A DNA stretch of 64,000 nt from an uncultured Parabacteroides sp. (GTDB taxonomy: Bacteria > Bacteroidota > Bacteroidia > Bacteroidales > Tannerellaceae): contig CALUZS010000013.1 of NCBI GenBank assembly GCA_944325355.1, forward strand, positions 1 to 64,000, written 5' to 3'. The position numbers and the translations under genes are program-made. This document shows, one piece after another, positions 14,069-32,736 of the stretch (position 1 is its first letter; each line of letters begins with the position of its first letter). The notes beneath the pieces are model-generated. The model searched no databases. It saw only the letters and a program-made list of their open reading frames with translations, and had not been told where the DNA came from.

Positions 14069-15226
14069 ATGAAAAGAACCATGAAGTTTGTTTACGGCTT
14101 CCTAAGCCTTTTCTTTTTCGTTTCATGCCTGCATGAAAAAGAGTTGAAGCCTATCTGCTCCGGTGATATCTGGCCTGACGACAAAGGTGTACATATCAAC
14201 GCACACGGAGGAGGTATCTTATACCACAAAGGGACATTCTATTGGTATGGTGAAAACAAAAGCGACTCTACCAGCAATGCGATGGTAGGCATCATGTGTT
14301 ATTCTTCAAAAAACCTTACCGACTGGAAAAATGAAGGGGCAGTCCTTCCGGTCGTCTCCGACGAATCCTGCGAAATTGTGCAAGGTTGCATCATGGAACG
14401 ACCGAAAGTCATTTACAACTCCAAAACCAAAAAATTTGTCATGTGGTTTCATCTCGAACTGAAAGGGCAAGGTTATGCTGCAGCCCGTTCGGCAGTTGCC
14501 GTCAGCGATCTGCCCACCGGTCCGTTTAAATATCTCAGATCTTTACGACCCAATGCCAAGAAATTTCCTTACGACATGACAGAGAGACAACGGAACATCC
14601 TTGACACATTAGACAGCCAGCATTACCAGAAATGGTGGACGCCGGAATGGAACGAAGCCGTTAAAAACGGGCTATTCGTCAAACGGGACATGCAAAACGG
14701 ACAAATGGCTCGCGACATGCAACTATTCGTGGACGATGACGGAAAAGCGTACCACATATATTCCTCGGAAGAAAATCTTACGCTCCACATTGCCGAACTT
14801 AACGATGAATACACGGGACATACAGGAAAATATGTGAGAGTTGCTCCAGCCGGACATAACGAAGCGCCGGCTATTTTCAAAGCCGACAGTACATATTGGA
14901 TGATATCATCCGGCTGCACCGGTTGGGATCCCAACGAAGCAAGGATGTTTTCCGCCACCAATATATTCGGGCCATGGACACAGCACAGGAATCCTTGCGT
15001 CGGGCCCAAATCGGAGATTACCTTTGGAGGGCAGAGCACTTTTGTATTGAAATTGCCAGGAAAAAAGAACGCCTTTATCTTCATGGCAGACATCTGGAAG
15101 CCTAAACATCCAAGTGACGCACGGTATATATGGTTGCCTATACAGTTCAAAAACGGGAATCCGGTAGTGGAATGGATGGATAGCTGGACCCTTGACTTTT
15201 TTGATAAGCGAACGGCTGAAAAGTAA
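14069..15226 (+). CDS. GH43-like (exo-beta-1,3-galactanase type) lipoprotein
   Basis: A 385-residue protein with a lipoprotein signal (FVSC, C20). The five-bladed beta-propeller pattern is clear: INAHGGGILYHKGTFYWYGE near the N-terminus, MERPKVIYN, MQLFVDDDGKAYHIYSS, and NEAPAIFK with a candidate acid glutamate. The HAHGGG-type start resembles the GH43_24 galactanase subfamily, which lacks the usual catalytic-base aspartate of GH43; no APDP-type aspartate is seen here either. Role: likely trimming of beta-1,3-galactan side chains as a surface or periplasmic lipoprotein (inference). The gene has no SusC/D partner nearby. Confidence 0.78.
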   Translation: MKRTMKFVYGFLSLFFFVSCLHEKELKPICSGDIWPDDKGVHINAHGGGILYHKGTFYWYGENKSDSTSNAMVGIMCYSSKNLTDWKNEGAVLPVVSDESCEIVQGCIMERPKVIYNSKTKKFVMWFHLELKGQGYAAARSAVAVSDLPTGPFKYLRSLRPNAKKFPYDMTERQRNILDTLDSQHYQKWWTPEWNEAVKNGLFVKRDMQNGQMARDMQLFVDDDGKAYHIYSSEENLTLHIAELNDEYTGHTGKYVRVAPAGHNEAPAIFKADSTYWMISSGCTGWDPNEARMFSATNIFGPWTQHRNPCVGPKSEITFGGQSTFVLKLPGKKNAFIFMADIWKPKHPSDARYIWLPIQFKNGNPVVEWMDSWTLDFFDKRTAEK

Positions 15227-22245: not shown

Positions 22246-23346
22246 CTATTTTATATCAAAATATTCCTTATAACGGTTATACAAATGCCCTGCTTGCAAA
22301 TAAGCCGACTGAGGACTCATAAAATGTGAGAACTCAAAAGTGATTGCCTTATCATATTTCTGGCGAGCAGCGGCTTCAAGCTTCATACGTAATTTGTCAA
22401 ATTTTATTGGCAAGAATTTTATTGGCATATCCCTGTCGAACGACTCGGCATTTGTCCAACACTGGATACCATATTTATCCGCCATCTTTTTATTTACACT
22501 AAAGAAAGCATCCAACTCATCGTAATCGATATGCCCATCCTGGAAAGCACACGCGTCTACATTTCCCTTGATTCCATCAAAAATTTCCGACCATTCACGT
22601 TCATGCTCCTCAACCGAGACAGCCTCTGCTTTACTCAAATTACCGGATGCTGCCGATACGGCCTTTTTCCCGTCAATCCACGGAGAAATCAAGGTAGGAA
22701 GCCCGCCTGAAACGTCCTTGCATTGTTTGCCTAAACTACTAAATGCGGAAATAGCGCCCTTAGTTTGCCGGCTAATCTCCTGACTCAAGTACCAACCTTG
22801 GAAACTTTTGTAATGACCGTACTTCTTCCATACTTCTTCTATTACATATTTATTCGATTCTATCTCCCAAGTCAAGTCGCCTGTATCCCAATATTTTCCG
22901 GAATCATACAGACCAAAATAAAACTTCATCCCGTATTTGTCTGAAAGACGGAGGAACATGTCTATCAAATCGACGGATGGCATATAACAACCGAATTTTT
23001 TCATTAAATATTCCGACGGATAAGTTATGAACTTACGGTATCCCGACCGAATAACGATAACGGTATCTATACCTATAGCTTTCATATAGGCAAAATCTTG
23101 GTCCCATTCTTTTTCGCCCCAGTTCTGATGGGGAATGTCATGGGAGATTTCATCAAGGAACGCACCAGTGATTTTCAGGCCTTGGGCTTTCGGAACAATC
23201 AGTTTGCTCTCTATATTATTACTCGATTGTTTAACCATATCAGAACCTGAATCGTTACCAGCAGCACATGAAGCCAAAGAACCTGCTGCAAAAGCAGCTC
23301 CGGTAACAGATACCTGTTTTAAGAAATCTCTTCTACTATTTGCCAT
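22246..23346 (-). CDS. Tat-exported DUF4434 TIM-barrel lipoprotein
   Basis: A 366-residue protein with a canonical twin-arginine signal (SRRDFLK, 4-10) and a lipobox LASC (C27), so a folded, Tat-exported lipoprotein is predicted. The rest matches the DUF4434 TIM barrel: GAFLDEISHDIPHQNWG, GWYLSQE (184-190), AFQD (267-270) and WTNAESF (297-303). E190 and E301 lie at strand ends where clan GH-A glycosidases hold catalytic acids; activity is unproven for this family. The second DUF4434 protein at 26381-27910 shares these three motifs but uses a Sec signal. Between the flavoprotein gene (25-base gap) and the sugar porter gene (1-base gap). Confidence 0.87.
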   Translation of the reverse strand: MANSRRDFLKQVSVTGAAFAAGSLASCAAGNDSGSDMVKQSSNNIESKLIVPKAQGLKITGAFLDEISHDIPHQNWGEKEWDQDFAYMKAIGIDTVIVIRSGYRKFITYPSEYLMKKFGCYMPSVDLIDMFLRLSDKYGMKFYFGLYDSGKYWDTGDLTWEIESNKYVIEEVWKKYGHYKSFQGWYLSQEISRQTKGAISAFSSLGKQCKDVSGGLPTLISPWIDGKKAVSAASGNLSKAEAVSVEEHEREWSEIFDGIKGNVDACAFQDGHIDYDELDAFFSVNKKMADKYGIQCWTNAESFDRDMPIKFLPIKFDKLRMKLEAAARQKYDKAITFEFSHFMSPQSAYLQAGHLYNRYKEYFDIK

Positions 23347-23371
23347 AATATTTACTGTTTAATGAATCTTT

Positions 23372-25270
23372 TTATATGAATTTTCCTGTTATGTCTATTT
23401 CTCTGGCATGGAAAGGGTCAACTACCGCATCCATCAGTACCGCAAACTCCTTACGGGTCACGGGACGATCCAAACTATAATCCGACAAGCCTAACTCTTC
23501 CCACAGGAGAGACCGTCCATCCCCTTCCGGAACATCCACACCCACCCCGGAGGAACGATCCGACTCTTTCACAGCCCGGACAAGTTCAAAAGCTTCTTCT
23601 ACGGTCAAAGCCTTATCTGTATTTTCCGGAGAGACCTGTCCATCCGTATAATCGGATATTCCGGAAGCCAACCCGGCATACGTCAATACAGAATCGGCAT
23701 CAAACCATGTCTGGTTGGACCAACCGACATTTGCACCACGTCCTTTCAATATTCCGGTTGCACCGATATGCTGTAAAGCCTTGAAATGCGCTTTTTTCAC
23801 AGGAATATCCAGATAAGGGAGCAAATATCCATTTCCCTCGAGAATGATATCCTGCACATCCCGGACAGAGACCTCATCCGGGCAGATTCCCTCTTTCACT
23901 GCCAATCCCGCAAGAGCCCCCGCGGCCTGTCCTATTTGCACAAGCACAGGTTGCAATCGGGTCGCACCATTTACAATATTGGTGACAGAGATGGATTTCT
24001 CTGTTACAATCAAATTATCCACATCCTCCGGCAACAACGTGCCCAATGGCAGTCCAAAAGATGGAACCGGATAAAAATGTATTTCCGGCAACTTGCTTTT
24101 TTCTTTATAACGGGCATGGTGATGATCGACCGGATAATCCCCCACGGCAATTGCCGTCCGGTACAAAGGCTGTACCTGTCCATAAGGATGAACCATTTGG
24201 TTCACGGAAAAACGAACCTTTCCATGTATGCGCCGGGATTCCCTGTGATACGGAATGAAAGGGAGCTTGTCGGCTGTCGGATATTCATCGTCTGCCAAAC
24301 CCAAGTTTTTAAAACCTAACTCTGTCTGCATAAAATAGACGTAGCTCAAGGTAAAATTTTTCAAGACTTGCAAGGCCGAATCACGCTGTTCCTTATCCAT
24401 CTCTATCATGTTCACATAATAATCATTACCGTTAATCGGCCAATTGATCATATACTTGTTGTTCGGCAACTTCCCATAAGTTATCATCTGATGCTTTTCC
24501 CAAAGGACAGTTCCACTGTCCGGATTGGAACACAAATCATTCTTGCAAGTACAATAAAAAATCGACGGGTCATATCCTGCCGGCTTTTCAATAGTCATGT
24601 CCTTCTCGCCAAAATCTTTCAATATTGCTACGTATGTAATATCCTGGATAACGTCGTTCGCATCTTCCGGAGCTATGTCTTCGCCACTGATATCCCGGTC
24701 ATCCATTCCTATATCGTATTTTACACCACACGCTTTTGCTATGTCGCCCAATTCCGTTCCATCAATAAGGATCCGGCATCTGACAGTCTCTTCCTTGCCG
24801 TCCCTGTTGATTGTCACAACCCAGCCATCCGGACGTTTTTCTATTCCCGACACTACCGATTTATACCAAACTTCCAATTTTTTTTCCTTTGCTGCAAGAC
24901 TTTTAAAAGCAGCATTCATCACCGAAGGTTCGGCACACACCGAAGATACCCATCCGGTACGTAAGGAATCCAACCCGCCATAATAATCGGACAAATAATC
25001 CCGGAATTCTCCAAAAATACCGGCCGGCATCTTATAATTTCCGTCTATACAACTCACACCTGCCGAGGTAAGCGCTCCGCCAAGCCACTCAAATTCCTCT
25101 ACAATAAGAGTTTTACTATCCAATCGGGCAGCTTGTATACCAGCAGCAGTACCGCTGGCTCCACCACCTACAATCAGTACATCAAACTCCTTTGCAGGAT
25201 TACAACTGTAAAAAAACGCAATCCCGGCAATAAATATAACAGACAATATATATTTTCCAATACTTTTCAT
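23372..25270 (-). CDS. Exported FAD-dependent oxidoreductase lipoprotein
   Basis: A 632-residue protein. A Sec-type lipoprotein signal ends in FFYSC (C23), followed immediately by the dinucleotide-binding fold with GGGASG (35-40) and the acid end VEE of strand 2; EWLGGALTSAG matches the PF12831 FAD_oxidored family. LIDGTELGDIAKACG and a closing GATRLQPVLVQIGQAAGALAG complete the flavin domain. The last 130 residues (ALQHIGATGILKGRG, then LDRPVTRKEFAVLMDA) resemble S-layer-homology repeats. The substrate is unknown; a secreted carbohydrate or alditol oxidation is possible given the DUF4434 and sugar-porter neighbours. A flavoprotein with a Sec rather than Tat signal is odd, since FAD would have to be acquired outside the cytoplasm. 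First gene of the operon. Confidence 0.86.
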   Translation of the reverse strand: MKSIGKYILSVIFIAGIAFFYSCNPAKEFDVLIVGGGASGTAAGIQAARLDSKTLIVEEFEWLGGALTSAGVSCIDGNYKMPAGIFGEFRDYLSDYYGGLDSLRTGWVSSVCAEPSVMNAAFKSLAAKEKKLEVWYKSVVSGIEKRPDGWVVTINRDGKEETVRCRILIDGTELGDIAKACGVKYDIGMDDRDISGEDIAPEDANDVIQDITYVAILKDFGEKDMTIEKPAGYDPSIFYCTCKNDLCSNPDSGTVLWEKHQMITYGKLPNNKYMINWPINGNDYYVNMIEMDKEQRDSALQVLKNFTLSYVYFMQTELGFKNLGLADDEYPTADKLPFIPYHRESRRIHGKVRFSVNQMVHPYGQVQPLYRTAIAVGDYPVDHHHARYKEKSKLPEIHFYPVPSFGLPLGTLLPEDVDNLIVTEKSISVTNIVNGATRLQPVLVQIGQAAGALAGLAVKEGICPDEVSVRDVQDIILEGNGYLLPYLDIPVKKAHFKALQHIGATGILKGRGANVGWSNQTWFDADSVLTYAGLASGISDYTDGQVSPENTDKALTVEEAFELVRAVKESDRSSGVGVDVPEGDGRSLLWEELGLSDYSLDRPVTRKEFAVLMDAVVDPFHAREIDITGKFI

Positions 25271-25292: not shown

Positions 25293-25300
25293 CAAATATA
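25293..25300 (-). promoter_or_regulatory. -7 box for the flavoprotein operon
   Basis: TATATTTG on the minus strand, 23 bases upstream of the ATG at 25270, and just beyond the terminator of the preceding gene: the flavoprotein operon is a separate transcript. Confidence 0.55.
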
Positions 25301-25334
25301 AAAGCTTTTCGAGTAAAAATTTTAATTTAGATAG

Positions 25335-25394
25335 AAAAAAGCCGGAATATTTTCTTTTTTCTTTGTGCGACTTTTCGAAAAAATATTCCGGCTT
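25335..25394 (-). terminator. Terminator after the basic-secretory-protein-like gene
   Basis: A perfect 15-bp stem (25339-25353 with 25380-25394), 26-base loop, and a T run on the minus strand. The 135 bases from here to the stop at 25531 hold no gene. Confidence 0.75.
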
Positions 25395-26380: not shown

Positions 26381-27910
26381 TCACTTTTTTACTGGATTGA
26401 CAAATACCTCATCACACAGCAGCCACGAGCCGTTTTTATTCTGCGCCACCATTTTTACATAACGGGCTTTCATCTTCAGACCACCGGCAACAGCCATATC
26501 TATCCAACAATCATACAAATCGTTCGAATATTGTTCCATAGCCACAGCTTTTGCCATTTCATAATGCTTCCCATCTTCAGAAACATAAAAGACAACGACA
26601 TCAGGCACTGCGATATTTTTGATTTTATAATTCATGAAACGGGCTGCAAGGCAAGAAATCTCTTGCAAAGAGCCCAAATCGATGACAGTTTCCATATCTG
26701 CAGATTTCACACCAATCCATTCCGGATCGGAAAAATCCTCGAATCCCAATTTGTTATCAGTCAGATTTCCTTTATTAAATTCGCTATCCGGACGATTTTC
26801 ATAAACGACAGACTTCCCGAAAGCTCCATTACTGAGTTCGTTGGCAAACGAAGCTTCCAACAATGGCCAACGTCCTTTCCCTGCTTTCCAGTCCATAAAA
26901 TCAATATAAGCCTGCTGCGACTCGCCGGGTTGTCCGAGCGGCATGGTTGATTGCGGCTTATCAAAAATACCACATACCGCGAAGCTGACAACTTCTTCCA
27001 CTCCAGCTTGCGACACTGCCGTCAGCTGGGAAAGGAATCGGGGAAATGCGGCAGGCAGCAATGCTGAATGAATCGAATTGGTTTCATTCTCCCACGTAAA
27101 CGATTCATTATTTGCCCACAATGCGATATTTGTCTTCTTATGTATCTCCGCCAAATCCTGGAAATGCTTTTTCATCCGCTTCATTGGCATCGGCTCCCTT
27201 ACACAACCGACCTCATCCTGATAAGCGATAATATCCACTTTCAGCTTAGCAATCTGCTCCCCGAACTTCGGGTCTTCCGTTGCCGCACGGAACAACCCAT
27301 ACGGGGAAATCATTATCTTCTTTCCCGGTGTCAGGTTCCGGGCACGCTCGGTCAATGCATTGGCTGCTTCTATCGCATGGTCGCTCAGTATCGGATTGAA
27401 ACTATCCTCAACCGGCAAATACCATCCGAAAAAAGACTTGTGATGCCCGAACAACCGGGCTGCCTCATCCATAATTTTCAGATATTTCGCCTTAATTTCC
27501 GGAATTTGCAAATTATCATTTTGGTTAACGCCCCATCCGCAACTCATAAACACATTCATTCCAAGTTCATCGGCGGTATCCATAATCGCTTCTACCGGGC
27601 TCTGTCTGCCATCATCCGGATAGGCTCGCTCCATAAAATCGGACGGATAAAAAGCTTTCTGCTCATTGGCTATCGCAAGTATTACCAGATACGACATCCC
27701 CATTTCATGAAGTTCATGGACCTTCTGCTTCCAAAATGCGGGGTCAAGGTCATCCACATGAGCCGGATTCATATATTTATTACGGACATCCTGATAAGTC
27801 AAATTAATCCATGTACCTCGCGTTGCCTTTGTCTGTGCATTCAAGGACGAACCTTGCGCTCCCAATAACAAAACTAACGCCAATGCAGCTAATTTCTTGT
27901 ACGTGTTCAT
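26381..27910 (-). CDS. Exported DUF4434 protein with C-terminal discoidin-like domain
   Basis: A 509-residue protein with a Sec signal (LLLGAQGSSLNA|QT). The DUF4434 TIM barrel covers about residues 30-340 with GWYLPVE (162-168), AYQD (229-232) and WANNESF (265-271), the same three motifs as the Tat-exported paralogue. The last 150 residues (ETVIDLGSLQEISCLAARF, VVFYVSEDGKHYE, KARYVKMVA) look like an F5/8-type-C (discoidin) carbohydrate-binding domain. Function of DUF4434 is not established; glycosidase-like activity is an inference from fold and the conserved glutamates. The ATG at 27910 is preferred over an upstream GTG at 27919; it follows the esterase stop by 11 bases. Confidence 0.86.
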   Translation of the reverse strand: MNTYKKLAALALVLLLGAQGSSLNAQTKATRGTWINLTYQDVRNKYMNPAHVDDLDPAFWKQKVHELHEMGMSYLVILAIANEQKAFYPSDFMERAYPDDGRQSPVEAIMDTADELGMNVFMSCGWGVNQNDNLQIPEIKAKYLKIMDEAARLFGHHKSFFGWYLPVEDSFNPILSDHAIEAANALTERARNLTPGKKIMISPYGLFRAATEDPKFGEQIAKLKVDIIAYQDEVGCVREPMPMKRMKKHFQDLAEIHKKTNIALWANNESFTWENETNSIHSALLPAAFPRFLSQLTAVSQAGVEEVVSFAVCGIFDKPQSTMPLGQPGESQQAYIDFMDWKAGKGRWPLLEASFANELSNGAFGKSVVYENRPDSEFNKGNLTDNKLGFEDFSDPEWIGVKSADMETVIDLGSLQEISCLAARFMNYKIKNIAVPDVVVFYVSEDGKHYEMAKAVAMEQYSNDLYDCWIDMAVAGGLKMKARYVKMVAQNKNGSWLLCDEVFVNPVKK

Positions 27911-27921
27911 ATTCCTCACTA

Positions 27922-31557: not shown

Positions 31558-31628
31558 GGAAAATTTCCCGATATTACATAAATCTCTCCAGAGATATCCG
31601 CCTTTTCTCCGATTTTGCCACTTTTTTT

Positions 31629-31660
31629 ATTGAAACAGTTTTATATTCTTCCTATCTTTG
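31629..31660 (+). promoter_or_regulatory. Promoter of the GH43 arabinanase-like gene
   Basis: TATCTTTG at 31653-31660 with ATTG at 31629-31632, spacing 20. Initiation near 31667 excludes the in-frame ATG at 31615. Confidence 0.6.
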
Positions 31661-31686
31661 AACAAAAATTATCAACTGAAGAATCT

Positions 31687-32736
31687 ATGAAACTAAAAAA
31701 ACTTTTCCCTTGCATAATCATTTTATTATGCCTGAACAGTTTCGGAATCCATGAGATTTCGGCAGAAAACAGTGACTCGAATAACAAATACAGAAATCCG
31801 ATAATCAACGAAAGTGCACCAGATCCCACCGTCATTCGTGCAAAAGACGGTTATTTCTACCTCTATGGCACAGAAGACACCCGTAACACGCCGATTTACC
31901 AATCGAAAGATTTAGTTCATTGGGAGTTTGTAGGGACAGCTTTCACCGATGCTACCCGTCCACAATGGAAAGACTTCAAGAACGGTAATCTGTGGGCTCC
32001 CGAAATCCGCTACTTCAATAAAAAATATGTTCTATATTATTCCTACGCTGTATGGGGTAATGAGCATGATACAGGTGTAGGCGTAGCTACATCCGATTCC
32101 CCAAAAGGTCCTTTTACAGATCACGGACGAATCCTCAACACTGAAATGACCGGTGTCCGTAACTGCATAGACCAATTCTTTTACCAACAAGGAAAAAAGA
32201 AATATCTTTTTTGGGGAAGTTTCCACGGAATATATGCTGTGGAACTGACAAAAGACGGTTTGGCAATGAAAACCGATAAGAACGGGAATATCAATAAAAG
32301 GTTAATCGCCGGAGGACCTGAGCCATGCGCTTATGAAGGAGTGAACATCTATAAAAAAGGGAAATACTATTACCTGTTCGCTTCTACCGGCTCTTGTTGT
32401 GAAGGAAGCAGAAGTACATATCAGACAGTCGTCGGACGTTCGAAGAATTTGTTTGGTCCTTACCTCGACAAGCAAGGAAGACCTATGACAAGCAATCACC
32501 ATGAGGTAATTATCAAAGGGAATGAAAAATGGGCTGGTCCCGGACATAATTCCATTATTATCAAAGATGATGCCGGACAAGAGTGGATTATATATCATGG
32601 TTATAAAAAAGAGGAAGCCGACAAAGGAAGAGTAATTTTAATGGATCGGCTACAATGGAGTGAAGACGGATGGCCCTACATCAACGAGGAGAATGCTCCA
32701 TCCATCGAAAGTGAAGTCCCGTTCATTAAAAAGTAG
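31687..32736 (+). CDS. GH43 glycosidase (arabinan endo-1,5-alpha-L-arabinosidase-like)
   Basis: A 349-residue exported protein: signal peptide (KLFPCIIILLCLNSFG), then the five-bladed GH43 propeller. The three acids are visible: base D46 in SAPDPTVI, pKa modulator D162 in NCIDQFF, and acid E217 in CAYEGVN. The NLWAPEIRY and GPGHNSI segments are typical of arabinanase and xylosidase-like subfamilies; the exact linkage is uncertain. Single gene with its own promoter and a strong terminator. The second GH43-like gene at 14069 belongs to a different subfamily. Confidence 0.86.
   Translation: MKLKKLFPCIIILLCLNSFGIHEISAENSDSNNKYRNPIINESAPDPTVIRAKDGYFYLYGTEDTRNTPIYQSKDLVHWEFVGTAFTDATRPQWKDFKNGNLWAPEIRYFNKKYVLYYSYAVWGNEHDTGVGVATSDSPKGPFTDHGRILNTEMTGVRNCIDQFFYQQGKKKYLFWGSFHGIYAVELTKDGLAMKTDKNGNINKRLIAGGPEPCAYEGVNIYKKGKYYYLFASTGSCCEGSRSTYQTVVGRSKNLFGPYLDKQGRPMTSNHHEVIIKGNEKWAGPGHNSIIIKDDAGQEWIIYHGYKKEEADKGRVILMDRLQWSEDGWPYINEENAPSIESEVPFIKK

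Follow-up and report, generated by a model that had tools for sequence, protein, structure and literature searches.

Sec and Tat signals on a flavoprotein and a DUF4434 barrel encoded side by side in a Bacteroidota gene cluster

Why would a flavoprotein leave the cytoplasm by Sec, when the barrel encoded beside it, which has no obvious cofactor, leaves by Tat? The question is raised by two minus-strand genes, ~25 bp apart, at positions 22246-25270 of the 64,000-nt stretch of DNA analyzed here (the window). An earlier note on this DNA described the two export routes as swapped. It offered three ways out: the barrel binds a cofactor or a partner, the flavoprotein binds FAD after export, or the two proteins are exported as a pair. 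We assessed these proposals using signal surveys across orthologues, structure models and gene neighborhoods.

Two genes and their signals

The first gene (23372..25270, minus strand) encodes a predicted FAD-dependent oxidoreductase of 632 amino acids, hereafter FP. It matches PF12831 over residues 30-474 (299.4 bits, gathering score 27; Pfam E 7e-89), with a dinucleotide-binding GGGASG at residues 35-40. The AlphaFold model of FP (pLDDT 90.6) has a glutathione-reductase-type FAD fold, with Z ~18 to Shewanella flavocytochrome c3. Motif and fold together suggest that FP binds FAD. The N-terminus of FP, MKSIGKYILSVIFIAGIAFFYSC followed by NPAKEFDVLIVGGG, has the positive n-region, hydrophobic core and lipobox-like FYSC of a Sec lipoprotein and ends its signal in FFYSC; as the earlier note had claimed, it carries no twin arginine. 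Based on the sequence, the orthologue survey below and rules, it is predicted to be a Sec/SPII signal peptide covering residues 1-23 (25202..25270, minus strand), lipidated at Cys23. Signal classes throughout are rule-based, supplemented by the NCBI Tat model TIGR01409. The lipidated Cys would lie only ~5 residues before the first strand of the FAD fold (window 25184-25204). This spacing is similarly short in many FP orthologues, which would place the FAD domain near the membrane.

An intracellular start codon for FP, which the earlier note had named as grounds for giving up its claim, was looked for. ATG-1 and TTG-9 are the only start codons within the first 40 codons, and none lies in the stretch that separates the signal from the FAD-binding GGG, so FP cannot be made from another start without its signal and with its FAD motif. 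A promoter-like −7 box also stands 22 nt upstream of the ATG, and over 70 orthologues with differing sequences retain the signal. There is thus next to no chance that the start is misassigned, with FP really cytoplasmic and its signal an artefact.

The second gene (22246..23346, minus strand) encodes a DUF4434 (beta/alpha)8 barrel of 366 amino acids, hereafter BAR (PF14488, 291.8 bits, gathering score 30; Pfam E 7.9e-87). DUF4434 was the only Pfam family that matched BAR, and the Tat model was the only match in NCBIfam. The BAR N-terminus, MANSRRDFLKQVSVTGAAFAAGSLASC, begins a signal of 27 residues (23266..23346, minus strand) with the twin-arginine motif SRRDFLK at residues 4-10 (23317..23337, minus strand) and the lipobox LASC at its end, and this signal is kept in orthologues. 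It scored 25.0 bits against TIGR01409 TAT_signal (cut-off 16.7), the best of the 13 Tat signals above cut-off in a profile search of the whole genome. Its core is weakly hydrophobic (hydropathy ~1.65, versus 2.94 in FP), and TatC is encoded in the same genome. These data predict export of BAR by Tat. The motif reported by the earlier note is therefore real and passes the NCBI model. FP and BAR both appear to be lipoproteins, of the Sec/SPII and Tat/SPII types, respectively.

Immediately downstream of BAR, at a distance of 1 bp, is an MFS sugar porter gene (PF00083; 20817..22244, minus strand; Pfam E 1.4e-107). A Pfam search of the window placed a BSP-type peptidase lipoprotein, a second DUF4434 barrel (BAR2) and an esterase upstream of FP. 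BAR2 (26381..27919, minus strand; 512 amino acids; Pfam E 3.7e-43) has the Sec signal MRNMNTYKKLAALALVLLLGAQGSSLNAQ, which contains no twin arginine. The intergenic sequence between the peptidase gene and FP contains a hairpin followed by a T-run (25334..25394, minus strand), a likely terminator. The −7 box mentioned above is TATATTTG (25293..25300, minus strand), which we take to be a Bacteroidota-type −7 element, and which may match by chance. The hairpin with its T-run and the TATATTTG box suggest that FP, BAR and the MFS porter form their own transcription unit. GH43-type glycosidase genes flank the cluster on both sides (14069-15226 and 31615-32736).

Export routes across the two families

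To survey FP orthologues, we scanned GTDB species genomes and obtained 80 FP loci, with 74 proteins having a readable N-terminus. A Sec-type signal was observed in at least 72 of these 74. Two orthologues (L047 and L073) have an Arg pair, but their cores are strongly hydrophobic and lack a proper Tat motif. A lipobox was assigned by rule in ~31 of the 74; the rest look SPI-like. Because Rossmann models fill the list for full-length rows and make them uninformative for TIGR01409, we scanned the N-termini alone, and TIGR01409 was absent from the families matching at least 6 of the 74. The earlier note had held that mostly Tat-type orthologues would count against it, and we observed mostly Sec signals.

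At five FP loci (L018, L021, L026, L033 and L044), the FP orthologue is fused behind a Sec-signalled calcineurin-like metallophosphatase (~1100 amino acids), and a signal-less BAR lies near four of the five.

BAR orthologues fall into 59 Tat-type ORF rows (including a few duplicates) and 14 signal-less rows, none of which has a Sec-type signal. Every signal-bearing orthologue has an RRxF-type motif at its N-terminus, and the signal-less rows start directly at M(K/R)I(T/K)GTFLDEISHDIPHQNWG. In the BAR alignment, whose 47 rows include 13 signal-less ones and BAR2, TIGR01409 matched 28. The conservation of N-terminal RRxF-type motifs in BAR and of Sec-type N-termini in FP is far beyond chance. 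We considered loss of the Tat machinery as a cause of the signal-less barrels and ruled it out, as TatC was present in 21/21 genomes checked, 13 of them with a signal-less BAR. Five loci (L036, L037, L038, L066 and L075) have a tandem pair of Tat-type BAR copies directly after FP, with no MFS porter nearby.

Both families use both routes. In a sample of 60 PF12831 proteins from genomes of the same family, hand-corrected counts were 32 Sec, 23 Tat and 5 unsignalled; the script's calls were changed by eye in five rows (L172, L173 and L193 to Tat; L187 and L188 to Sec). The routes split by subfamily: Sec signals mark the YGGTxxG, GGNPGG and FP groups, and Tat signals the GGGxGGC and GGGPxGC groups. 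The genome containing the window encodes one Tat-type and two Sec-type PF12831 members. The Tat-type member (L004; C4:45212-46897) is exported like FP but through Tat (MDRRNFLGRVALGGG); it is similar to the GGGxGGC-type subfamily, all sampled members of which are Tat. DUF4434 is likewise mixed, with BAR2 and L212 Sec, the GSWFEFxHH group Tat, and the BAR group either Tat or signal-less.

The signals on which the earlier note based its idea of swapped routes are thus genuine and conserved, but the premise that they are anomalous fails, since both routes are common in both families. The best reading is that export route is an inherited subfamily trait and is not set by cofactor need. These data warn that cofactor content is a poor guide to Sec versus Tat, because single Bacteroidota Pfam families use both, by subfamily. 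At one locus (L224:6236-9043), the gene after a signal-less BAR encodes a PF12831-like flavoprotein that shares 27% identity with FP and carries a Tat signal; here the routes are those that the earlier note would have expected.

Folding, cofactors and FAD loading

The AlphaFold model of BAR is a (beta/alpha)8 barrel with pLDDT >90 over most of the barrel. A close relative has been solved: PDB 4h41, BT_0435 of Bacteroides thetaiotaomicron, shares ~78-80% identity with BAR across the barrel and has the same fold as the model (Z 43, rmsd 1.9 A over 313 residues). It was deposited as a ‘putative alpha-L-fucosidase’, a name that is only putative. The literature searched held no activity or cofactor for BT_0435, and searches on DUF4434, BT_0435 and PF12831 in Bacteroides returned no enzyme activity for FP or BAR. 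PMC3878776 lists BT0433, two locus tags from BT_0435, as NanR, a ROK regulator (sialic acid; N-acetylglucosamine). ROK genes adjoin BAR in many loci, much as NanR stands near BT_0435.

Beyond 4h41, the best fold matches of BAR were Cwp19 and GH5, GH53, GH10, GH2 and GH164 enzymes. Cwp19 and these clan GH-A-like glycosidases share its barrel and the glutamates at strands 4 and 7 (Z ~18-21), although identity is just ~9-15%. In the BAR model, strands 182-187 and 295-300 are followed by E190 (22777..22779, minus strand) and E301 (22444..22446, minus strand), which sit just past barrel strands 4 and 7 as the carboxylates do in the GH-A-like layout. Both residues are invariant in BAR rows and in distant DUF4434 rows, and are the predicted acid/base and nucleophile, respectively. 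The model thus suggests that BAR is a glycosidase-like enzyme with a retaining, metal-free layout.

We then weighed the proposal that BAR needs Tat because it acquires a metal or an organic cofactor before leaving the cytoplasm. Two observations favor it. To judge by eye from their sequences, the 12 further proteins of this genome with above-cut-off Tat signals resemble nucleotide-, cofactor- or metal-binding proteins, and BAR has a strongly conserved loop, DEISHDIPHQNW, with two His. However, the nearest folds are metal-free glycosidases with the usual glutamate pair, the His pair is not common to other DUF4434 barrels, and BAR2, another DUF4434 barrel of the same window, uses Sec. Cofactor-free Tat substrates also exist, as in the case of AmiA and AmiC of E. 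coli. We therefore consider this proposal improbable. The structure check called for by the earlier note did yield a model, a glycosidase-like barrel, but gave no sign of a cofactor; fold, conserved residues and the solved relative 4h41 all leave cofactor binding by the barrel unsupported, and a cofactor in BAR is unlikely. Conserved cysteines were also considered as a reason for Tat in BAR and dropped, as the Sec-type BAR2 has several too. By eye, the Tat set of the genome (13 signals, L125-L137), BAR aside, consists mostly of Gfo/Idh/MocA oxidoreductases, together with two Fe-S aldo-keto reductases, a sugar-isomerase-like barrel and one PF12831 flavoprotein. BAR looks like an exception among the Tat substrates of its own genome, most of the others appearing to bind cofactors.

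Export of FP and BAR as a folded pair, in which FP would travel by means of BAR's Tat signal, is suggested by the 25 bp between the genes and by their frequent adjacency. FP has its own Sec signal, however, and in signal-less loci FP is exported and BAR stays inside, so that close relatives of BAR are cytoplasmic next to a Sec-exported FP. As a general rule the proposal is refuted: an FP orthologue occurs in only 8 of 24 Tat-BAR genomes, and some of the 16 FP-less genomes are incomplete, but G049, G040, G031, G079, G080 and G032 are 99% complete, with G049 a single contig that has a Tat BAR and no FP. In addition, FP is broken in three of the genomes that have it, by a stop in G113 and into pieces in G121 and G123. 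We give pair export very little credence. Four loci (L227-L230) have a Tat BAR alone among housekeeping genes, and in B. finegoldii a divergent ROK regulator, BAR and then an MFS porter stand together with no FP beside BAR. The three relatives with FP broken by stops or frame shifts (L043/L113 in G121; G113; G123) keep the BAR gene, which is intact in two of them and has an in-frame TGA in G121; assembly errors are possible.

The evidence on FP supports the remaining proposal of the earlier note, and uptake of FAD after export is the most likely course for this protein. FP would be threaded unfolded through Sec and lipidated at Cys23, and once across the membrane would load FAD from a periplasmic supply. 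A precedent comes from one flavocytochrome family, in which Shewanella Fcc3 has a Sec signal and the methacrylate reductase has a Tat signal, RRDFLK (PMC4427408). Fcc3 and the Geobacter methacrylate reductase (Mrd) are homologous periplasmic FAD proteins that use Sec and Tat, respectively. The FAD domain of FP superposes on Fcc3; unlike Fcc3 and Mrd, FP belongs to PF12831, lacks the haem domain and is a predicted lipoprotein. Cofactor proteins exported by Sec require an extracytosolic cofactor supply, and FAD export has been described (PMC9973259). The genome containing the window encodes a Sec-type ApbE lipoprotein, and the substrate of ApbE is FAD, which implies periplasmic FAD. An EetB-type FAD exporter (PF07456) was absent from this genome, and no known FAD exporter was identified in it. 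On our reading, many of the non-covalent flavoproteins that gut Bacteroidota export should acquire their FAD outside the cytoplasm, for which a periplasmic FAD supply is to be expected, with no carrier found in this genome.

BAR, free of cofactor, would fold in the cytoplasm and be moved folded by Tat. Folding in the cytoplasm, where some close relatives still work, is the most likely reason for its use of Tat. Overall, we think it probable that the route is inherited by subfamily, that FP is loaded with FAD after export, and that BAR is a cofactor-free protein folding in the cytoplasm, with Tat as its address tag.

Importer type and the location of the barrel

We observed an association between the location of BAR and the type of importer encoded nearby. 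A sugar-porter MFS lies within 6.5 kb in 39/49 Tat-type BAR loci versus 0/14 signal-less loci, mostly directly downstream of BAR and usually within a few bases. Of the 14 signal-less loci, 7 have an SSF symporter upstream of BAR and three have a different MFS (c34) nearby; in 12 of the 14, the gene for a cytoplasmic AGE epimerase follows BAR after 0-17 bp. Among the 10 of 49 Tat loci with no MFS nearby, the four inspected have the barrel alone among housekeeping genes. Two genomes examined afterwards fit the association (L223, Tat with MFS; L224, signal-less with SSF). The Fisher test for the importer association gave p = 5e-8, a value that ignores kinship; the BAR tree shows ~2 state changes, and we rejected the p value as strong evidence for that reason. 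The outgroup of this tree is on a very long branch, and the direction of change between Tat and no signal is not fixed by it. The association may be shared ancestry. We regard it as a new lead, a strong correlation built on ~2 independent events.

The signal-less close relatives are 60-79% identical to BAR and work in the cytoplasm, which suggests that the Tat signal serves as a removable address label that sets the side of the inner membrane on which the barrel acts. Beside a sugar-porter MFS, as in this window, the barrel would act before import, the MFS taking up free sugar; beside an SSF symporter it would act after import, the symporter taking up the uncut glycoside. Tat would then reposition a cytoplasm-folding enzyme rather than carry a cofactor. 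We propose only tentatively that BAR is relocatable in this sense, performing the same glycosidase step on either side of the inner membrane, with its Tat signal present or absent in step with the importer. The differences in route could instead be neutral leftovers, with subfamily signals gained by chance and no importer link. Route is indeed subfamily-specific and rarely changed, the importer link rests on ~2 switches, and some Tat barrels stand alone. Against chance gain, the link held in the two further genomes, and the cytoplasmic BAR is directly beside the cytoplasmic epimerase in 12/14 loci; we consider neutral leftovers unlikely, though a serious candidate. The Tat-tagged and untagged forms of this enzyme, 60-79% identical, make up a natural experiment on why an enzyme uses Tat and on whether its location tracks the importer.

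Related clusters (L063, L080, L083 and L142) repeatedly contain DUF5009 membrane proteins and GDSL esterases, a hint of acylated sugar substrates.
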